Shown here: positions 1-7,693 of the stretch, one piece after another
Layout: each line of letters opens with the position of its first letter
How positions within the stretch are numbered: the stretch's first letter is position 1
Assembly (NCBI GenBank): GCA_902782815.1
Contig: CACZOS010000332.1
Span: forward strand, 1 to 10,007
Origin: an uncultured Lachnospiraceae bacterium
Lineage (GTDB): Bacteria; Bacillota; Clostridia; Lachnospirales; Lachnospiraceae
DNA: 10,007 nt
Direction: 5' to 3'
The notes under the pieces: model-generated
Told to the model about the DNA's origin: nothing
The model's input: only the letters and a program-made list of their open reading frames with translations
The model's database searches: none
Position numbers and translations under genes: made by a program

Positions 1-630
1 GGGGTTCTGGCTTCTCTCAGCGAAGAGGACGCAGCGGCCATAAAGGACAGTCTTGATGAGGAGGAGATCGCGGAGATGTCTTCCGAAGAACAGCAGGAGC
101 TGATCACCAACATGGGTGAGATTGTGGATAAACATCAGAAGGTTCTGGTCCTGGTTCAGGATAAGCTGGAAGAAGCTGACGCGGATGTGGAGATCGATGA
201 AGAGACCGGAAAGATCACCATGGATAACAGTATTCTCTTTAAAAAGGGAGAGTATAAACTGTCTGATGCAGGGAAGAAGAGCCTGGATGAGTTCTTCAGC
301 GCATATGGTGAAGCTATCCTGGATAAGTCGGTTTCTTCCTATGTATCCCAGATTCAGGTCATCGGCAACGCCAGTTCCGAAGGTGACTATAATTATAACA
401 AAACCTTGTCCCAGAACAGGGCAAAGGAAGTTATGAATTATTGTCTGAACAGCAAGAAGATGGGCTGGACGAAGGATCAGAAGAAACAGCTGAAAGGTAA
501 GATGAAGGCTATCGGTGTCTCCAGCGATAATCCTGTGCTGGATAAAAACGGCAAGGAAGACAAGAAGGCAAGCCGGAGAGTCGAATTTAAATTCATTATG
601 AATATTGACGGTGACACTGATAAAAAATGA
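1..630 (+). CDS. OmpA/MotB-type C-terminal domain protein (5' partial)
   Basis: The reading frame is open from base 1, so the true start lies upstream; the Met codon at 76 is internal. The visible 209 residues begin with an acidic, Glu-rich, probably helical stretch (about the first 65 residues). An OmpA-like domain follows, recognisable by the SILFKKGEYKLSDAG strand-helix start, the IQVIGNASSEG core, the LSQNRAKEV helix and the final ASRRVEFKF strand. Such domains normally bind peptidoglycan in OmpA, Pal, MotB and ZorB. In the core motif (usually GHTDxxG) the peptidoglycan-contacting Asp is replaced (GNASSEG), while the Arg of LSxxRA is kept, so binding may be altered. The membrane anchor, if any, is outside the window. 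The stop lies 38 bp before the kinase start with no terminator between, suggesting one operon. A MotA/ExbB-type partner upstream is possible but not visible. The domain call is fairly secure; the role is unknown. Confidence 0.8.
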   Translation, partial: GVLASLSEEDAAAIKDSLDEEEIAEMSSEEQQELITNMGEIVDKHQKVLVLVQDKLEEADADVEIDEETGKITMDNSILFKKGEYKLSDAGKKSLDEFFSAYGEAILDKSVSSYVSQIQVIGNASSEGDYNYNKTLSQNRAKEVMNYCLNSKKMGWTKDQKKQLKGKMKAIGVSSDNPVLDKNGKEDKKASRRVEFKFIMNIDGDTDKK

Positions 631-668: not shown

Positions 669-3527
669 ATGGATTTTTCGAACATTGATTATGCACCATG
701 GAAGGTTGTCCGTCTCATCGGACATGGTTCCTTCGGCTCTGTATATGAGATACAGAGGGAGGAATTCGGTGAAGTATACCGGGCTGCGCTGAAGGTCATC
801 TCCATTCCCAAGTCGGATAACGAGATCATGGAAAACCGCGCGGACGGTATGGATAACGAAAGTATGACTTCCTACTACAGCAGTGTGGTAAAGGAACTGA
901 CTCACGAGTTCGCCCTGCTGAATAAGATGAAAGGAAACACCAACGTTGTGGGATATGAGGACCACAAGGTGGTTCCCCATGCCGACGGCATCGGCTGGGA
1001 CATTTATATCCGCATGGAACTCCTGACATCCCTGACCAAGGTTTCGTCAAGGTATGCTTTCAGCCGGGATGAAGTCCTGAAGATCGGTATCGATATCTGT
1101 GAAGCGCTGAGTCTTTGTGAAAAGCAGAATATCATCCACAGGGATATCAAGCCGGACAACATCTTTATCTCCGAGAATGGCGATTACAAGCTGGGTGATT
1201 TCGGTATAGCCAGAACCGCGTCCAAGACCATGTCCAACATGTCCAGGAAGGGAACGCCCAACTATATGGCTCCCGAGATCTATAAGAATGAACCATACAA
1301 TCAGAGTGTGGATATCTACTCTCTGGGTATCGTACTCTACCAGCTGATGAACGGGAAGAGACTTCCCTTTATCCCGGTCAATATGACCATTCAGGACAGG
1401 GAGGCTTCCCTGGGCAGAAGGCTGAGCGGAGAACCCTTCCCCATGCCTGAGAATGCAGATCCCGCATTTGCCAATGTGATCTTAAAAGCCTGTGCTTACG
1501 ATCCCAGACAGAGATACAATAATGCGGATGAGATGAAGGCTGACCTCCAGAGGCTGCTGAACGGGAAAAAAGTTCCGCCTATCGATGTGGCAGCGATCAT
1601 GGCAGATAACGACGCAACGGAAGCCTATGTATCCGGACCGGCCAATCTGTCGGAATCCTTCGTGAACGACAGCGGGACCATGCCGGTTGATGTCATGTCC
1701 GGAAACAATGGCTACAGGTTCGACAACGCCCAGCCTGAAAATAATTATAATTACGGCAATGCCAGCCAGAATAATATGTCCGGCGGGAACTACAATTACG
1801 GTAATGCCCAGGCTGACAATAATTACAATTACGGCAACGCCAGCCAGAACAATATGTCCGGCGGGAACAACTATAATTATGGTAATGCCCAGGCCGACAA
1901 TAACTATAATTACGGCAACGCCAGCCAGAATAACATGACCGGCGGCAACGAGTATAATTACGGCAACGCCAGTCAGAACAATATGACCGGCGGCAACGAG
2001 TATAATTACGGCAATGCCAGTCAGAACAATATGACCGGCGGGAATGATTACAACTACGGCAATGCCAGCCAGAATAATATGTCAGGCAATCTGCCGGGCG
2101 GAAATGACAACATTCCCGGAAATGCCGGGGCAGGACCTGCCGGCGGCAACGTGGGAGAGGAAGGCGCCAACGCTCGTTTCGCCAACCATGTTCCCAATCC
2201 CGGCGGAAACGGCGGCGGCCAGACTAAGAAGATGGGGAAGGGCCCCATCATCGGCGGAGCAGTTGCTGCGGTAGCGCTTATTATTCTTCTGGCTTCCCTG
2301 ATGGGAAGAGGGGGATCGTCAGGCAGCAATACCGCCCAGACCCCGGCTACTCAGGCACCTGCCACGGAAGCGCCTGCCACGGAAGCACCTGCCACTGAGG
2401 CGCCGGCTACGGAAGCACCTGCCACCGAGGCAGCAGCTTCCTCCGGACAGTCCTATCTGACGGATAGCCTTGATGATTATATCTTCGAACTGGAAGGCAA
2501 ATTCTATAAACTGCCTTTCAGATATTCGGATTTCAAGGCTAACGGCTGGTCTCTGGTCAGTACAGATTACAGCCCCGCGACAGAAGAGGATGAGATCACG
2601 GCAGGTGAATACGAGATGTACCGGATGTCCAACGGAGCGGTGGAGATCTATGTGGACATCTACAATGCCAGCGGCAATGTGAAGGCACTCAAAGACTGCA
2701 ATATCGGCGGTATTACAATCGAAGCCAAAGATAACCTTGACTTCAAGGTTGCCGGCGGCCTGACCTGTCTTTCAACGGTTGAGGAGGTTCAGGAGAAATT
2801 CGGTATTCCGGATTCCAGCAACACCTATGATACCAACACTACTCTTACCTATAAGACCGGAGATTATTCTGCTGACGGCGAGACCAGGTTCAGTATCTAC
2901 AGTGACCGGACTACAAACAACAGCATCGAGCTTAATTACCGGCCTGTAACCAAAGAAGATATCACCGAAATATCCAATGAGAGACCGGACTACCTGGCAA
3001 CCTACAAAGCGCCGACCCAGCTCTCCTCTGATCCGACGGAAACCATCTTCCAGCTGGACGGCAAGCTTTACCAGCTGCCCTGTACACTGAACGAGTTTAC
3101 CGACGCAGGCTGGACAGTTTCCGAGAAGAAGGTTGACGGTGTCCCGGGGAAGAATAAAGAAAGCTATGCTCTGGAGATTTCCAAAAACGGCTACTCCCTC
3201 AATCTGGGACTGGCCAATTACAGCAACAATGCCTGCACTCCGGAAAACTGCGCGGTGTATTCCGTTGATGTAACGAAAACCAACCGTGACGGCAGCATGC
3301 CCGCGGATTATATGACCTTCTCCGGCGGATATAACCTGGGAACTTCAGAAGCAGATCTGGATAAGATTCTGGCTTCCTTTGAGAAGAATGATAAAGACGA
3401 TTACGCATCCTACAATTATTATAATCAGGCCTATACCAAGAAGGTTCGTGTTTACCTGTATCAGGGATCCAATAATTATACCAGCTTTGATGTAAGCCTT
3501 GATAATGAGGAATGGAATTACCAGTAA
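669..3527 (+). CDS. Transmembrane Ser/Thr protein kinase with repeat linker and novel extracellular sensor
   Basis: This 952-residue protein is a Hanks-type kinase of the bacterial PknB/PrkC class in its N-terminal domain (about residues 9-297). It shows the glycine loop GHGSFGSV (18-25), Lys42, HRDIKPDN (157-164), DFG (177-179), a Ser/Thr-rich activation loop and APE (201-203), so it should be active. Residues about 358-473 are an Asn/Tyr/Gly/Gln-rich repeat linker. One membrane segment follows (527-546), then a PATEA-repeat stalk and a 358-residue extracellular region (595-952). That region has no PASTA domains; it is two diverged copies of one module (see repeats). The kinase domain should be cytoplasmic and the sensor outside. 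The next gene encodes the same sensor as a lipoprotein, and the FHA protein and PP2C phosphatase downstream are the expected reader and eraser. The kinase identity is certain; the ligand and substrates are unknown. Confidence 0.95.
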   Translation: MDFSNIDYAPWKVVRLIGHGSFGSVYEIQREEFGEVYRAALKVISIPKSDNEIMENRADGMDNESMTSYYSSVVKELTHEFALLNKMKGNTNVVGYEDHKVVPHADGIGWDIYIRMELLTSLTKVSSRYAFSRDEVLKIGIDICEALSLCEKQNIIHRDIKPDNIFISENGDYKLGDFGIARTASKTMSNMSRKGTPNYMAPEIYKNEPYNQSVDIYSLGIVLYQLMNGKRLPFIPVNMTIQDREASLGRRLSGEPFPMPENADPAFANVILKACAYDPRQRYNNADEMKADLQRLLNGKKVPPIDVAAIMADNDATEAYVSGPANLSESFVNDSGTMPVDVMSGNNGYRFDNAQPENNYNYGNASQNNMSGGNYNYGNAQADNNYNYGNASQNNMSGGNNYNYGNAQADNNYNYGNASQNNMTGGNEYNYGNASQNNMTGGNEYNYGNASQNNMTGGNDYNYGNASQNNMSGNLPGGNDNIPGNAGAGPAGGNVGEEGANARFANHVPNPGGNGGGQTKKMGKGPIIGGAVAAVALIILLASLMGRGGSSGSNTAQTPATQAPATEAPATEAPATEAPATEAPATEAAASSGQSYLTDSLDDYIFELEGKFYKLPFRYSDFKANGWSLVSTDYSPATEEDEITAGEYEMYRMSNGAVEIYVDIYNASGNVKALKDCNIGGITIEAKDNLDFKVAGGLTCLSTVEEVQEKFGIPDSSNTYDTNTTLTYKTGDYSADGETRFSIYSDRTTNNSIELNYRPVTKEDITEISNERPDYLATYKAPTQLSSDPTETIFQLDGKLYQLPCTLNEFTDAGWTVSEKKVDGVPGKNKESYALEISKNGYSLNLGLANYSNNACTPENCAVYSVDVTKTNRDGSMPADYMTFSGGYNLGTSEADLDKILASFEKNDKDDYASYNYYNQAYTKKVRVYLYQGSNNYTSFDVSLDNEEWNYQ
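1740..2088 (+). repeat. Asn/Tyr/Gly-rich tandem repeats in the kinase linker
   Basis: Six copies of a unit of the form YNYGNASQNNM[ST]GG occur, the first three separated by two shorter YNYGNAQAD units. The last three are perfect-period 48-bp tandem units at 1938-1985, 1986-2033 and 2034-2081. The first two of these differ at only one base by hand comparison, which suggests recent expansion. The encoded segment is on the cytoplasmic side, between the kinase domain and the membrane segment, and its composition is prion-like (Asn, Gln, Tyr, Gly, Ser, almost no charge). Confidence 0.95.
2343..2432 (+). repeat. 15-bp repeats encoding the PATEA stalk
   Basis: One PATQA and five PATEA units follow the membrane segment of the kinase. 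They encode a Pro/Ala/Thr-rich, probably extended stalk that holds the sensor away from the membrane. A shorter related stretch (PATEAATTEAPA) sits at the matching position in the downstream lipoprotein. Confidence 0.9.
2451..3527 (+). repeat. Sensor repeat, copy 1 (kinase extracellular region)
   Basis: This stretch encodes kinase residues 595-952 and is matched along its whole length by 3813-4886. The hand-aligned proteins are about 80% identical, with a single one-codon length difference near the C-terminus. Inside the copy, two modules of roughly 165-180 residues resemble each other. IFELEGKFYKLP and ANGWSL in the first match IFQLDGKLYQLP and AGWTV in the second. Matching Cys, GG and Phe-rich positions follow in the same order. 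Confidence 0.9.
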
Positions 3528-3540
3528 TCATTGCCTGGTA

Positions 3541-3587
3541 CGGCAGCTTTGATGATCCGGGATTGACCGATCCCGGACAAGCTGCTG
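3541..3587 (+). promoter_or_regulatory. Strong intergenic stem-loop between kinase and lipoprotein genes
   Basis: An outer stem (3541-3549 with 3579-3587, including GCAGCTT/AAGCTGC and one G-U pair) encloses a perfect 8-bp inner stem (TCCGGGAT at 3556-3563 with ATCCCGGA at 3570-3577) and a 6-base loop. A 6-base bulge lies on the left arm and a single base on the right. No T-run follows, so it is unlikely to be an intrinsic terminator. It ends just before the lipoprotein ribosome binding site (GAGAGGAGAG). An mRNA processing or stability element that sets different levels of the two proteins is the simplest guess. Confidence 0.65.
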
Positions 3588-3608
3588 AGTTGAGAGGAGA
3601 GAAAAATA

Positions 3609-4886
3609 ATGTTTAAACGATTAAAGAACAGGGCGGCATTTGCGGGGATCCTGGTATTTATTCTGGCCCTTTCCATGATTCTTTCCGGCTGCGGGGCAAA
3701 ACCGGCGGACAATCCTCCGGCAGATTCTGCCGAGCCCGCTGAGAATCAGGAAGTGCAGGAAGAAACCCCTGCTACCGAGGCGGCCACGACGGAAGCACCT
3801 GCCGCTGAGCAGTCTTATCTGACTGACAGCCTGGATGATTATATCTTTGAACTGGAAGGGGTATTTTATAAACTTCCCTTCAGGTATTCGGATTTCAAGG
3901 CTAACGGATGGTCTCTGGTCAGCACGGATTACAGTCCTGTAACCGAGGATGACGAAATTACTGCCGGTGATTATGACATGTACCGGATGACCAACGGAGC
4001 AGTAGAAATCTATGTGGATATCTATAATGCCAGCGGCAATGTAAAAGCCCTCAAAGACTGTAATATCGGGGGTATCCAGATCGAGGCCAATCAGAACCTT
4101 GATTTCAAGGTTGCCGGCGGCCTGACCTGCCTCGCCACAGTGGAGGAAATCCAGGAGAAATTCGGTATTCCGGATTCCAGCAATACCTATGACACCACCA
4201 CAACCCTTACCTACAGGACGGGAGATTACTCTGAAGAAGGACAGACCACTTTCAGCATCGACAGTGAACGAACTCCCAATAACTACATCGAACTTGATTA
4301 CCGCCCCACCACCACTGAAGATATCACTCAGGTTTCCACCGAGAGACCGGACTATCTGGCGGCCTACAAGGCGCCGGCTCAGCTCTCCGCTGACCCGACG
4401 GAAACCATCTTTGAGTTAGGCGGTAAGCTTTATCAGCTGCCCTGTACTTTGGATGAGTTCACCAATGCAGGATGGACGGTCTCCGAGAAAAAGGTTGACG
4501 GTGTGGCCGGCAAGAATAAGGAAAGCTATGCTTTGGAGATTTCCAAGGACGGATATTCCGTCACGCTGGGCCTGGCAAACTTCAGCAACAATGCCTGCAT
4601 GCCTGAAAACTGTGCGGTATATTCTGTCGATGTGGACAAGGATTTCCGGGACGGAAGTATGCCCACAGATTACATGAAACTTTCCGGAGGATATGATCTG
4701 GGAGCCAAGGAGGAAGATCTGGATAAGGTTCTGACCTCCTTTGAGAAGAATGACAGTGATGATTACGCCTCCTACAGCTTTTCCAATCAGGCCTACACCA
4801 AAGACATTCATGTCTATCTGTATCAGAGCCCTGATTATCCCAGCATTGATGTAAGGCTGGAAAATGAGGAATGGAATTACCAGTAA
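3609..4886 (+). CDS. Lipoprotein carrying a free-standing copy of the kinase sensor
   Basis: The 425-residue product starts with a basic n-region and hydrophobic core ending in the lipobox LSGC, with Cys28 as the acylated residue. It should be anchored to the outer face of the membrane. An acidic, Pro/Thr-rich linker (about 29-68) containing a relic of the kinase stalk follows. Residues 69-425 are about 80% identical to kinase residues 595-952. There is no kinase domain. A GAGAGGAGAG ribosome site lies six to seven bases before ATG 3609. The gene sits 81 bp after the kinase stop, beyond a strong hairpin, and 21 bp before the FHA gene. Because it keeps the sensor but not the enzyme, it could bind the same ligand and compete with or present it to the kinase, or pair with the kinase sensor. 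These roles are inference. No established family beyond this paralogy is recognised. Confidence 0.9.
   Translation: MFKRLKNRAAFAGILVFILALSMILSGCGAKPADNPPADSAEPAENQEVQEETPATEAATTEAPAAEQSYLTDSLDDYIFELEGVFYKLPFRYSDFKANGWSLVSTDYSPVTEDDEITAGDYDMYRMTNGAVEIYVDIYNASGNVKALKDCNIGGIQIEANQNLDFKVAGGLTCLATVEEIQEKFGIPDSSNTYDTTTTLTYRTGDYSEEGQTTFSIDSERTPNNYIELDYRPTTTEDITQVSTERPDYLAAYKAPAQLSADPTETIFELGGKLYQLPCTLDEFTNAGWTVSEKKVDGVAGKNKESYALEISKDGYSVTLGLANFSNNACMPENCAVYSVDVDKDFRDGSMPTDYMKLSGGYDLGAKEEDLDKVLTSFEKNDSDDYASYSFSNQAYTKDIHVYLYQSPDYPSIDVRLENEEWNYQ
3813..4886 (+). repeat. Sensor repeat, copy 2 (lipoprotein)
   Basis: This is the second copy of the 1.07-kb direct repeat with 2451-3527. Blocks of identical DNA of about 30 bases remain, for example around the FGIPDSSN codons (about 2790 and 4155). 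Many third positions differ elsewhere, so the duplication is not very recent. The first module appears better conserved between copies than the second. Confidence 0.9.
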
Positions 4887-4907: not shown

Positions 4908-5822
4908 ATGATCAATACGAACTATGAAGCAGACTGCACATTTTATGTGCAGTCTGGCTATCCTATCGTAAAATTTTCCGATATAAATACGTTTTCCATG
5001 CTCCAGTACAAGATTATCTCTGCCAGGGAGATCCAGGGTCTTATGCCCTGTGAATCTCTGGTGGTGGACGGAGATCTGAATGTGGCCTACATGCCCGGTG
5101 ACAGGGAAGCCCTGGCGGATTCCATCAATAATATGTCCACCGGTCATGTCTACCGGCTGATCTGTATGATGGTGACGGTCATGCAATCTGTGGTTTCTAA
5201 CGGCTATCTGAGGCTGCAGAATATCCTTCTGGATCCTTCAGCTATCTATGTAAATGACAATATGTCTGAATTACTGCTTACCTACATACCCTCTGATAAG
5301 GACAAAAAGAAGGGGGATGTCCAGGCACAGCAGGATATTCTTGAGTTCTTTAACCGGATCATGGAAATGACACCCAGCACCAATTTCCCCGAATGGAGAA
5401 CCTGCCTGGAGCATCTGTGGGGGAAAAATCTGCGATTCCTGGAGTTCGGCGGTTTTATCATTGCCGCCCTGGGAATGGGATATAAATCCGGGAAGAATCC
5501 GGGAAAGAAAGAAAGACCCAGGAAAATGATCCTGCAGTCCACTAATCTGAATCCGCCTCTGACTATCCCTGTTAAACAGGGTGTCACCCGAATCGGAAGA
5601 TTAAAGGAATTTTCGGATATACCACTGGAACAGTTTGGTGTGATCAGCTCAAGACATTGTGAAATCAGCCTGAAGAAGGACGTCATGTCCGTGAAGGACT
5701 TAAAGAGTAAAAACGGTACTTATATTAACGGAAAGAGACTCGAGCCCGGGAGAGAATATCCTCTCAAGGCCGGCGATCAGATCGGTATCGCCTTTTACGT
5801 ATTTGATGTAAAGGCAGATTAG
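4908..5822 (+). CDS. FHA-domain protein with DUF6382-like N-terminal region
   Basis: The 304-residue protein ends in a forkhead-associated domain (about 208-303), which recognises phosphothreonine. The diagnostic residues are present: R231 in RIGR, S248-R249-H250 in SSRH, and N269-G270-T271 followed by N274-G275. It should therefore read marks made by the kinase encoded two genes upstream. The N-terminal 170 or so residues resemble the DUF6382 region found with FHA domains in Clostridia (from memory). Residues 98-130 (GYLRLQNILLDP...) recall the catalytic-loop region of kinases without the catalytic Asp, so a pseudokinase-like fold is possible. A short hydrophobic stretch (180-192) followed by a Lys/Arg-rich segment may touch the membrane. 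The start at ATG 4908 has a modest GGGTGG site, partly within the palindrome CCCGCGGG (4890-4897). The FHA call is firm; the N-terminal interpretation is tentative. Confidence 0.93.
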   Translation: MINTNYEADCTFYVQSGYPIVKFSDINTFSMLQYKIISAREIQGLMPCESLVVDGDLNVAYMPGDREALADSINNMSTGHVYRLICMMVTVMQSVVSNGYLRLQNILLDPSAIYVNDNMSELLLTYIPSDKDKKKGDVQAQQDILEFFNRIMEMTPSTNFPEWRTCLEHLWGKNLRFLEFGGFIIAALGMGYKSGKNPGKKERPRKMILQSTNLNPPLTIPVKQGVTRIGRLKEFSDIPLEQFGVISSRHCEISLKKDVMSVKDLKSKNGTYINGKRLEPGREYPLKAGDQIGIAFYVFDVKAD

Positions 5823-5854: not shown

Positions 5855-6910
5855 ATGAAGCCCCATGTATTGTTTGCATCCGCAGATAAAGAATATATTT
5901 TCCCTCTGGTATTCCGGCTTCTTTCCGATTTCGGGAAAACGGTCGATTTTGAGGTGGCCAGCCAGGAAGAAAGCCTTTCTGCCATTGCAAAAAGGACAGA
6001 CAGGATCGATCTGCTGATAGTGGATGAACTGAATATAGATGATGCCATGATCTCCTGCGAATCCATTGCGAAGGTGCTTATCCTTACAGAGGACAAGAAG
6101 GGAAGCGGCGAATGGTCATCCATGAAGACATCAGCTGTTTACCGGTATTCTACCCTGGATGTGCTGCATGGGGTGATCGCCACCCATTGTTCGTCCCTGG
6201 TTTCCCGTTATTCCAGGAAAAATGTGACCCAGACGGTCATGGTCACCTCCGTGAGCGGGGGCGCCGGGAAGTCCCTGGTAGCTTTCAGCCTGGCCAGGAG
6301 CCTTAATCAGGTGGGAAACAAGGCAATCTATATCTCCATGTGCTGGGACCAGGATACGGGACATTTTGTCCATGATCCCCGGTTCATAGACGGGAAGATC
6401 TTTGTTCCCACGGAGGAAGGAGAGCCGGATTTCTCCGATTATCAGCAGTATGTTGCCCGGGATGAAGGGCTGGTTTATTTTCCTTTGCTGAACAGTCCGC
6501 TATATATGCTGAAGGAAAACCCCGGACTGATTCTGAAACTGATCCGGGCCGTTGCCGAATCAAATGAGTATAATTATATTATCGTGGATACGGATACCAT
6601 ATATGATTCTTACAAATCTGAACTTATCGATCTGTGTTCGGACATGGTGTTTGTCCTGACCCACGGTGAAGGGGAAATCGACAAACTTCATAGTCTGATG
6701 GATCATATCGATCTGAAAAGAGATCGGTGCTACTTTATCAAAAATAAGGTAAATTCAGAGGAAGAGAAAGGTTTTGCCACAGACTCTGCCCCCAGGCAGA
6801 CCCCGAAATATGTGGCGACGATACCGGTGATCAATGCCAGAGACTCAGAGAAGATCAAACAGGTTATCACACAGCCGGATTTTCTGTCTTTGGGATATTT
6901 AATACATTGA
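5855..6910 (+). CDS. TadZ/CpaE-like P-loop ATPase with degenerate receiver domain
   Basis: The 351-residue protein has an N-terminal region (about 1-110) shaped like a response-regulator receiver: LLIVDELN with Asp57 at the phospho-acceptor-like position, then VLILTEDK. The usual conserved Lys near the end is not evident. A MinD/ParA-superfamily ATPase domain follows, with P-loop VSGGAGKS (133-140) and a Walker-B-like IIVDTD (Asp245, Asp247). The signature Lys of ParA/MinD P-loops (KGGxGKT) is Ser134 here, while the nucleotide-binding Lys139 and Ser140 are kept. This architecture is that of TadZ/CpaE proteins, which position pilus or secretion machines at the membrane or pole. No Tad pilus genes are visible in the window. 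GAGGAG at 5841-5846 is well placed before ATG 5855. The gene follows the FHA gene by 32 bp. A localisation or assembly role for the phospho-signalling complex is inferred. Confidence 0.8.
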   Translation: MKPHVLFASADKEYIFPLVFRLLSDFGKTVDFEVASQEESLSAIAKRTDRIDLLIVDELNIDDAMISCESIAKVLILTEDKKGSGEWSSMKTSAVYRYSTLDVLHGVIATHCSSLVSRYSRKNVTQTVMVTSVSGGAGKSLVAFSLARSLNQVGNKAIYISMCWDQDTGHFVHDPRFIDGKIFVPTEEGEPDFSDYQQYVARDEGLVYFPLLNSPLYMLKENPGLILKLIRAVAESNEYNYIIVDTDTIYDSYKSELIDLCSDMVFVLTHGEGEIDKLHSLMDHIDLKRDRCYFIKNKVNSEEEKGFATDSAPRQTPKYVATIPVINARDSEKIKQVITQPDFLSLGYLIH

Positions 6911-6925
6911 GGATATTAGATATAT

Positions 6926-7693
6926 ATGAAGATACAGTATACCGTCCATTGTACTTCCGGACGTATTCGTCTGGAAAATGAAGATAACTTTTATCTCAAC
7001 GGAGAGATCAGGGATCTCGAGGACAGAGAGGTGAAAAAAGAAGGTTCCTGTGAGGGGGATCATGCGCTGTTTGCGGTTTGTGACGGACTGGGCGGTGAGG
7101 GAAACGGCGAGAAAGCATCCTTTGCCGCGGTAACTATGCTGGAACCCTTCCGTGATGATTTCTGCCGAAGGTCCATGGAATATTTTGATGCCGCCAACCA
7201 GGAGATGCATTCTCTTCAGAGAAACAGCCAGTCGGGTATGGACTGTACCTTTACCGGTCTCTATCTCAGCGATTCCGGCTATTACGGATGTAACCTCGGG
7301 GACAGCCGGCTTTATCTGCTTCGTGATCAGCAGTTTACCCAGCTGTCGGAGGATCATTCGGAATTTGCGGCCATGCTGCGGTACGGAGTTTTCAAACCAG
7401 AGGATTATTATACCAGTAATGCACGGAACCGGCTGACCAGAAGTGTGGGTTGTCTGAGGGAGACTTTGGTTCCCAGGGAAGTATCCGGGGAGACCCTGCT
7501 GGCGGGAGATATTTTTCTTCTCTGCAGTGACGGGCTTTGCGGTTATGTTCATGATGATGAGATGTCCGACATTCTGAATAAAGATATGGAGCTTACGGAT
7601 ATGGCAGATGAACTGGTGGGAAGGGCGCTGATCTACCGCAGTGACGACAACATTACCGTGATGATCATCCGGATTCAGGAGGCAGGGCAATGA
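6926..7693 (+). CDS. PP2C-family Ser/Thr protein phosphatase
   Basis: The 255-residue protein has the full PP2C motif set: RLENEDN near the N-terminus (metal-site Asp20), CDGLGGEGNGE (Asp53), GDSRLYLL (Asp126), TRSVG, CSDGL (Asp202) and DDNITVMI (Asp241-Asn242). This predicts a soluble, Mn/Mg-dependent phosphatase of the Stp/PrpC type that removes phosphates placed by the upstream kinase. The length is typical for bacterial single-domain PP2C enzymes and no membrane segment is seen. ATG 6926 lies 15 bp after the ATPase stop. The nearest Shine-Dalgarno-like sequence (GAGGA at 6909-6913) is about 12 bases upstream, so initiation may be weak or helped by coupling to the upstream gene. The stop codon overlaps the start of the next gene in ATGA. 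Confidence 0.95.
   Translation: MKIQYTVHCTSGRIRLENEDNFYLNGEIRDLEDREVKKEGSCEGDHALFAVCDGLGGEGNGEKASFAAVTMLEPFRDDFCRRSMEYFDAANQEMHSLQRNSQSGMDCTFTGLYLSDSGYYGCNLGDSRLYLLRDQQFTQLSEDHSEFAAMLRYGVFKPEDYYTSNARNRLTRSVGCLRETLVPREVSGETLLAGDIFLLCSDGLCGYVHDDEMSDILNKDMELTDMADELVGRALIYRSDDNITVMIIRIQEAGQ

Follow-up and report, generated by a model that had tools for sequence, protein, structure and literature searches.

A lipoprotein beside a membrane Ser/Thr kinase carries a conserved copy of the kinase's extracellular sensor: a candidate enzyme-free partner

A lipoprotein gene next to a sensor kinase gene carries the kinase's ectodomain

The window analysed here is the whole of contig CACZOS010000332.1 (C332), 10,007 bases from a single draft genome (84.6% complete, 5.5% contamination) of an uncultured Lachnospiraceae bacterium. 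It encodes a membrane Ser/Thr kinase and beside it, on the same strand and after a gap of 81 nucleotides (nt), a lipoprotein that carries a copy of the extracellular sensor of that kinase. The features of the two genes, with lengths in amino acids (aa), are:

669..3527 (alternative GTG start at 657), + strand: membrane Ser/Thr kinase, 952 aa (Pkinase, 3.8e-41)
702..1523, + strand: protein kinase domain (Pfam PF00069)
1743..2090, + strand: Asn-rich tandem YNYGNA-type repeats, predicted cytoplasmic linker (from the translation; boundaries counted by hand)
2247..2306, + strand: single predicted transmembrane segment, kinase residues 527-546 (hydropathy maximum)
2316..2450, + strand: extracellular stalk of the kinase, with PATEA repeats (sequence alignment)
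2451..3524, + strand: extracellular sensor of the kinase, 358 residues; lobe 1 about 2451-2984, lobe 2 about 2985-3524 (BLASTP, alignment, hhalign)
3609..4886, + strand: lipoprotein carrying the sensor copy, 425 aa
3609..3692, + strand: lipoprotein signal peptide through the lipobox Cys28 (LSGC), assigned by eye
3762..3812, + strand: relic of the kinase stalk, homologous to 2382-2433 (DNA alignment)
3813..4883, + strand: sensor copy in the lipoprotein; lobe 1 about 3813-4346, lobe 2 about 4347-4883

The catalytic motifs GHGSFG, ALK, HRDIKPDN, DFG and GTPNYMAPE are all present in the kinase. We adopted ATG 669 as its start, since relatives have the same one; the GTG-657 frame shifts the residue numbers by 4. 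In the linker at 1743-2090 the YNYGNA-type repeat occurs eight times, and several relatives have other Gly/Asn-rich repeats at that place.

A preliminary description of this DNA had claimed that kinase residues 595-952 and lipoprotein residues 69-425 match end to end at about 80% identity, behind a relic of the PATEA stalk. With the ATG 669 start these numbers proved exact: sensor and copy share 292 of 357 aligned residues (81.8%) in an alignment with a single gap column, and the DNA of the two genes aligns at 79% over 1148 columns. Together with this alignment, a BLASTP E value of 0.0 rules out a chance or low-complexity match. The stalk relic is real as well. Its local DNA alignment has a score of 47, which was reached in none of 2000 codon shuffles (shuffle maximum 46), and about 17 PATEA stalk codons were copied into the lipoprotein gene along with the sensor. 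At the amino-acid level alone the stalk resemblance would be weak evidence, because similar TEA/PAT-like motifs are also found in 9 of 66 other stalks of the family. In its own draft genome, the ectodomain is present on the Ser/Thr kinase and on the lipoprotein, with no third copy.

The copy is old, constrained and apparently derived from the kinase

We estimated the synonymous (dS) and non-synonymous (dN) divergence between the kinase sensor and the lipoprotein by three methods, which gave a dS of 0.76-1.02, a dN of 0.10-0.12 and a dN/dS of 0.10-0.16, values that vary with the exact range compared. As a yardstick, the ectodomains of L103 and L154, two loci with the same kinase type in two species of another genus, differ by a dS of 0.67-0.77. 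Measured against this yardstick, and with dN/dS so low, the sequences suggest that the duplication is about as old as the L103/L154 species split or older and that both copies have been constrained, with the proviso that a dS near 1 is a rough clock only. A recent or drifting duplicate is ruled out by the same two values.

The conservation of individual residues points the same way. The lipoprotein keeps all 45 columns that show no variation among eight enzyme-borne ectodomains, as compared with 38 in P0002 and 37 in P0003, two members without a kinase domain; the eight include the neighbouring kinase, which makes the 45/45 figure lean in favour of the lipoprotein. In a leave-one-out control, enzyme-borne members retain from 45/45 to 45/54 of the invariant columns. 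Relative-rate counts gave p > 0.05 with eight of nine outgroups. Faster evolution of the lipoprotein, hinted at by branch lengths of 0.16 versus 0.063, is not claimed, the relative-rate counts being inconsistent.

We built a tree of 45 rows (30 two-lobe rows kept, 22 more distant stand-alone rows left out and 15 added). In it, the lipoprotein and the neighbouring kinase ectodomain are sisters (100/100), and this pair is placed in a clade (97/89, 99/95) made up of ectodomains of that kinase type apart from one other kinase-less member, P0003. Since the lipoprotein is nested among kinase ectodomains and carries a piece of the kinase stalk, copying from kinase to lipoprotein is the direction supported by the sequences. 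Hence the proposal in the preliminary description, that the sensor and the end of the stalk were copied behind a lipoprotein signal peptide, stands, and purifying selection can be added to it.

Similar transitions are seen elsewhere in the tree. P0002, a membrane protein without a kinase domain, is sister to kinase P0007 (98/98). The lipoproteins P0019, P0020, P0022 and P0023 align with kinase P0011 over the sensor plus an extra membrane-proximal domain (E 3.6e-87 to 1.1e-125); five of the six rows in this group are kinase-less (P0019, P0020, P0021, P0022 and P0023), so that the change there may have gone in either direction. Overall, the tree requires at least nine switches between an enzyme-borne state, on a kinase or a TIR protein, and an enzyme-free one. 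From P0002, P0003, the P0011 group and this count, it follows that the ectodomain has moved repeatedly between bound and free forms; with the root unplaced, we make no claim on the ancestral form for the whole family.

The sensor is a two-lobed domain found mostly in stand-alone exported proteins

The kinase sensor is built from two lobes that are homologous to each other (hhalign probability 99.9, E 1.3e-33). For the lipoprotein, Pfam gave no match up to E 0.1 and NCBIfam only matches below cut-off, and none of the kinase matches in Pfam or NCBIfam marks the sensor as a known domain. When the profile was run against PDB sequences up to E 5, it retrieved no solved structure. Weak BamE matches, seen in 4 of 48 members and reaching 7.9e-4 at best, hint at a part resembling BamE, which was not located when ten members were scanned one by one. 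The matches listed in an open-access literature search describe neither the domain nor the pair; subscription papers lie mostly outside this search, so the result is not proof of novelty.

Matches to the ectodomain occur in 48 of 397 genomes of the taxonomic family (drawn from a larger group) and in 5 of 24 genomes of the organism's own genus. Of the 59 listed matches, three lie in frames longer than 700 aa; the other 56 have frames of 264-623 aa, and for 45 of these the length is 370-490 aa. Among the two-lobe rows, a set that excludes shorter matches (n = 52, 51 different), 33 are stand-alone members including the present lipoprotein, 12 are kinases, 4 are TIR proteins and 3 are enzyme-free membrane proteins, members being classed as stand-alone by their position and by the lack of a kinase motif. 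Of the 32 other stand-alone members, 15 carry a strict lipobox pattern; judged by eye, the remainder resemble lipoproteins or Sec-secreted proteins, one or two of them having an unclear start. A contig search with the lipoprotein as the lone query found no relative, and an alignment query found six named loci, all Clostridia-type records. In L105, the sensor lies in a frame that opens with a segment resembling peptidase C39; this frame may be a chimera and was omitted from the tree.

Two further observations concern this distribution. The TIR-domain proteins P0004, P0015, P0017 and P0018 carry the same two-lobed ectodomain, so that one sensor serves both kinases and TIR proteins. In L038, L083 and L085 stand-alone members form tandem pairs, and no kinase open reading frame (ORF) was found in the 20 kb around the L038 pair.

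The pair lies in a kinase-FHA-phosphatase gene run with a predicted hairpin in its first gap

All genes of the window are on one strand. The OmpA/MotB-like gene, cut by the contig end, is followed by the kinase, the lipoprotein and the DUF6382-FHA protein; downstream of these lie the genes of a MinD/ParA-like protein, a PP2C phosphatase and an HD protein, then a decarboxylase gene and the beginning of a nitroreductase gene. Further features are:

1..630, + strand: OmpA/MotB-like protein, 5' end missing at the contig end (PF00691, 1.1e-10; ZorB1 model, 6.6e-41)
3541..3587, + strand: predicted RNA hairpin in the kinase-lipoprotein gap, without a U-tail (RNA folding)
4908..5822, + strand: DUF6382 plus FHA protein (Pfam)
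5855..6910, + strand: MinD/ParA-like P-loop protein (weak ParA/CbiA matches below cut-off)
6926..7693, + strand: PP2C phosphatase (PF00481, 8.4e-12; NCBIfam Stp1_PP2C_phos, 8e-43, below that model's cut-off)

Because the gaps from the kinase through the phosphatase measure only 81, 21, 32 and 15 nt, these genes are likely on one transcript. The lipoprotein gene has the kinase gene on one side and, on the other, those of the likely partners of the kinase, the FHA protein and the phosphatase. Genes resembling the MinD/ParA-like one at 5855..6910 occur near FHA and kinase genes in other loci.

The stretch 3516-3620, which contains the hairpin, folds at -33.7 kcal/mol with a z of -3.71, a value matched in none of 200 shuffles. 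No terminator-like site was called at 3541-3587, and the hairpin is not a standard terminator because it lacks a U-tail. Among 222 loci, its core was found in L001, L002 and L050 alone, all three being copies of the window, and one exact pattern scan for it in viral contigs found nothing.

Judging by the gene content of relatives, the kinase gene run is a variable island. Matches to the FHA protein occur in 3 of 24 genus genomes, two of them over 50-77 residues only. The decarboxylase (68-74% identical in G016 and G012) and the nitroreductase are kept in genus relatives, with the kinase run not adjacent as far as the contigs reach upstream of the decarboxylase (only 0.75 kb in L219, 5.7 kb in L221).

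The first ORF of the window, 1-630, matches PADLOC ZorB1 models at 6.6e-41, and NCBIfam ZorB models at 67 and 50 bits against cut-offs of 400. The Zorya system consists of ZorA with ZorB and either ZorC/D or ZorE. No other Zorya model is among the matches listed for six window proteins (for the kinase, 25 of 34 matches), and the region upstream lies off the contig. Separately, an OmpA-like lipoprotein is encoded near a kinase of the window's type in L178 and L182.

A possible role in adjusting kinase output

We propose, at roughly even odds (about 0.5), that the lipoprotein is a conserved, tethered, enzyme-free paralogue that shares the ligand or cell-wall partner of the kinase and adjusts its output by competition or through mixed oligomers. 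The preliminary description had named a decoy, a co-receptor or a dimer partner as candidate roles. In our account, the 3' part of the kinase gene, encoding the sensor and about 17 stalk codons, was duplicated behind a lipoprotein signal peptide next door, after which both copies were kept by purifying selection. The sequences themselves show the homology, the stalk relic, the nesting among kinase ectodomains, the constraint and the close spacing on one strand; the binding and tuning described next are inferred. The lipid-anchored copy would bind the same ligand or wall partner as the kinase ectodomain, which is the simplest assumption for a conserved paralogue of a receptor's outer half encoded in the same gene run and placed on the same membrane. 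In doing so it could lower the kinase output, either by competing for ligand or by forming mixed ectodomain oligomers without a kinase domain; alternatively, it could raise the output by concentrating the ligand. The FHA protein would then read the kinase signal, which the PP2C phosphatase of that gene run would erase. The hairpin could protect or process the message and thereby yield unequal doses of lipoprotein and kinase.

Several findings weigh against this proposal. The pair of kinase and lipoprotein was found in one draft genome only. In L103, L104 and L154, which have the same kinase type and sensor, a PP2C phosphatase gene comes next and the lipoprotein copy is absent in 3/3, and searches of each genome detected a single ectodomain copy; the kinase therefore does not generally need the lipoprotein. 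(Upstream, L103 and L104 encode a trypsin-FHA protein and an FHA protein, with look-alikes in L154; in their genus any match occurs in 11 of 42 genomes, and strong matches only in these three. The comparison covers these three loci; P0006-P0010, P0012 and P0013 are further kinases of this type with the sensor.) Most ectodomain matches lie in frames too short to hold a kinase of this size together with the sensor. No kinase ORF was found in 16/16 stretches with kinase-less members, as searched with two kinase query types at E 1e-8; the 16 come from 20 stretches of 3.0-20 kb around ectodomain matches, the shortest of them being 4.0 kb, and six (L044-L049) hold single-lobed or partial matches. 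With one of the nine outgroups the lipoprotein evolved faster (p = 0.017, uncorrected), and the hairpin may be unrelated to dosage. By its distribution, the free domain appears to function elsewhere without an adjacent kinase. Being mostly stand-alone, without a kinase ORF nearby, and also borne by a second kinase type and by TIR proteins, the ectodomain does not serve kinases exclusively as an accessory, and that this particular copy tunes its kinase is what we infer. The preliminary description had held that lipoprotein homologues lacking any such kinase would refute its proposal; they abound in the domain family, and none is as close as the present copy, the nearest stand-alone relatives of which are far more distant than the neighbouring kinase ectodomain.

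We also examined whether such kinases generally have an adjacent lipoprotein copy, and no such rule was seen. The kinase domain matches at E 1e-55 in 41 of the 397 family genomes, its own included. At E 1e-45, 42 loci yielded 47 kinases, 45 of which had tails of sufficient length. Delimited at the strongest hydrophobic stretch, a rough boundary in some cases, these tails gave no match (0/45) to a neighbouring enzyme-free ORF at E 1e-4. The matches that did arise were between kinases (L160, L162, L168) or between a kinase and a PP2C gene (L172). In L172 (8566-12557, genome G300), the PP2C phosphatase and the adjacent kinase share a similar tail, PASTA-like by eye, and may read the same signal.

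Much of the above would fit a lipoprotein that arose from the kinase gene and is now an independent surface protein, binding a wall or environmental ligand and not touching the kinase, and we regard this as quite possible, at clearly less than even odds. Most of the matches are short stand-alone frames, those in the same genus lie among metabolic and transport genes (translations read by eye) without a kinase ORF, and the three related kinase loci do without the lipoprotein. Yet its closest relative is the neighbouring kinase ectodomain rather than any stand-alone protein, it keeps 45/45 invariant residues at mostly balanced rates, and its gene lies between the kinase and the likely partners of the kinase. 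A lipoprotein older than the kinase sensor, from which the kinase took its ectodomain, is improbable: stand-alone is the commonest form of the domain and an original capture by kinases is plausible, but the nearest outgroup rows, P0003 excepted, are kinase ectodomains, and part of the kinase stalk is present in the lipoprotein. The least probable reading is that the lipoprotein gene is a duplicate that has died or is drifting, or that it arose in assembly. A single draft contig from a single genome would allow it; against it stand an open frame of 425 codons with an intact signal peptide and lipobox, a dS near 1 with low dN/dS, a protein divergence of 18%, which is not that of an assembly repeat, and the neighbouring decarboxylase-nitroreductase pair, which is syntenic in genus relatives.

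Returning to the tethered paralogue that tunes its kinase, a wider and more doubtful form of the proposal would be that Clostridia repeatedly release kinase ectodomains as enzyme-free paralogues with a lipid or membrane anchor, which here form mixed receptor complexes with the parent kinase at a dosage set by the hairpin, the ectodomain being an undescribed ligand-binding module of kinases, TIR proteins and surface lipoproteins. If true, this would be a bacterial counterpart of animal decoy receptors or co-receptors. To our knowledge, the ligands of most bacterial Ser/Thr kinase ectodomains are unknown, and a separate, conserved ectodomain copy offers a ready probe both for the ligand and for ectodomain pairing. 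Since the two-lobed domain is common to two kinase types, TIR proteins and exported proteins of the stand-alone form, discovery of one ligand would inform all of them.

Comparison with known systems

In several loci, kinases of the same type with FHA, MinD-like or phosphatase genes adjoin type VII secretion genes; Pfam identified FtsK/EssC-like ATPases in L166, L168 and L170, WXG100 proteins in L166, L168 (below cut-off) and L171, and YukD in L171. These loci resemble the published type VII secretion systems T7SSe, T7SSf and T7SSj. In T7SSe and T7SSj a kinase is accompanied by a PPM phosphatase and an FHA component, with DUF6382-FHA described for T7SSe, whereas T7SSf has a phosphatase, a DUF6382-FHA protein and an ATPase with a TadZ-like receiver domain, and no kinase was found in it (PMC11217815). 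Like T7SSe and T7SSj, the window brings together a PP2C/PPM phosphatase, a DUF6382-FHA protein and a kinase. Unlike in T7SSe, T7SSf and T7SSj, neither WXG100 nor an EssC-type ATPase was found in the organism's own draft genome. At 84.6% completeness these absences are not final, and the best EssC-like match, 31% identical over 208 query residues in an 839-aa frame, is not convincing. The window run further differs in its lipoprotein, a word absent from the main text of that paper.

Two precedents bear on the proposed action of a separate exported protein. In mycobacteria, overexpression of the external PASTA domain of PknB delays regrowth and alters wall enzymes (PMC4632501), and so a free ectodomain can matter, although that one is an artificial construct of a domain different from the window sensor. 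In Staphylococcus aureus, SaePQ, a lipoprotein and a membrane protein encoded beside SaeS, induce the phosphatase activity of SaeS (PMC5083920). As with SaeP, the lipoprotein gene of the window adjoins a sensor kinase gene; unlike the Ser/Thr kinase of the window, SaeS is a histidine kinase.

By analogy, the closest precedent is mycobacterial PknH with its sensor-domain lipoproteins: a PknH-type ectodomain also occurs in the separate lipoproteins LppH, LpqQ, LprH and LpqA of the same mycobacterial species (PMC4118811). Neither the kinase nor the lipoprotein of the window has a PknH-domain match, in Pfam up to E 0.1 or in the PDB profile search up to E 5, and the PknH domain is absent among the best 25 of 98 Pfam families for 48 members (up to E 5). 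The likeness to PknH and LppH therefore lies in the arrangement, a Ser/Thr kinase ectodomain that is also borne on a lipoprotein of the same genome. In contrast to the mycobacterial case, the copy in the window comes directly after the gene of its own kinase, with which it shares 82% identity, and the domain is two-lobed, its six named loci being from Clostridia-type records.

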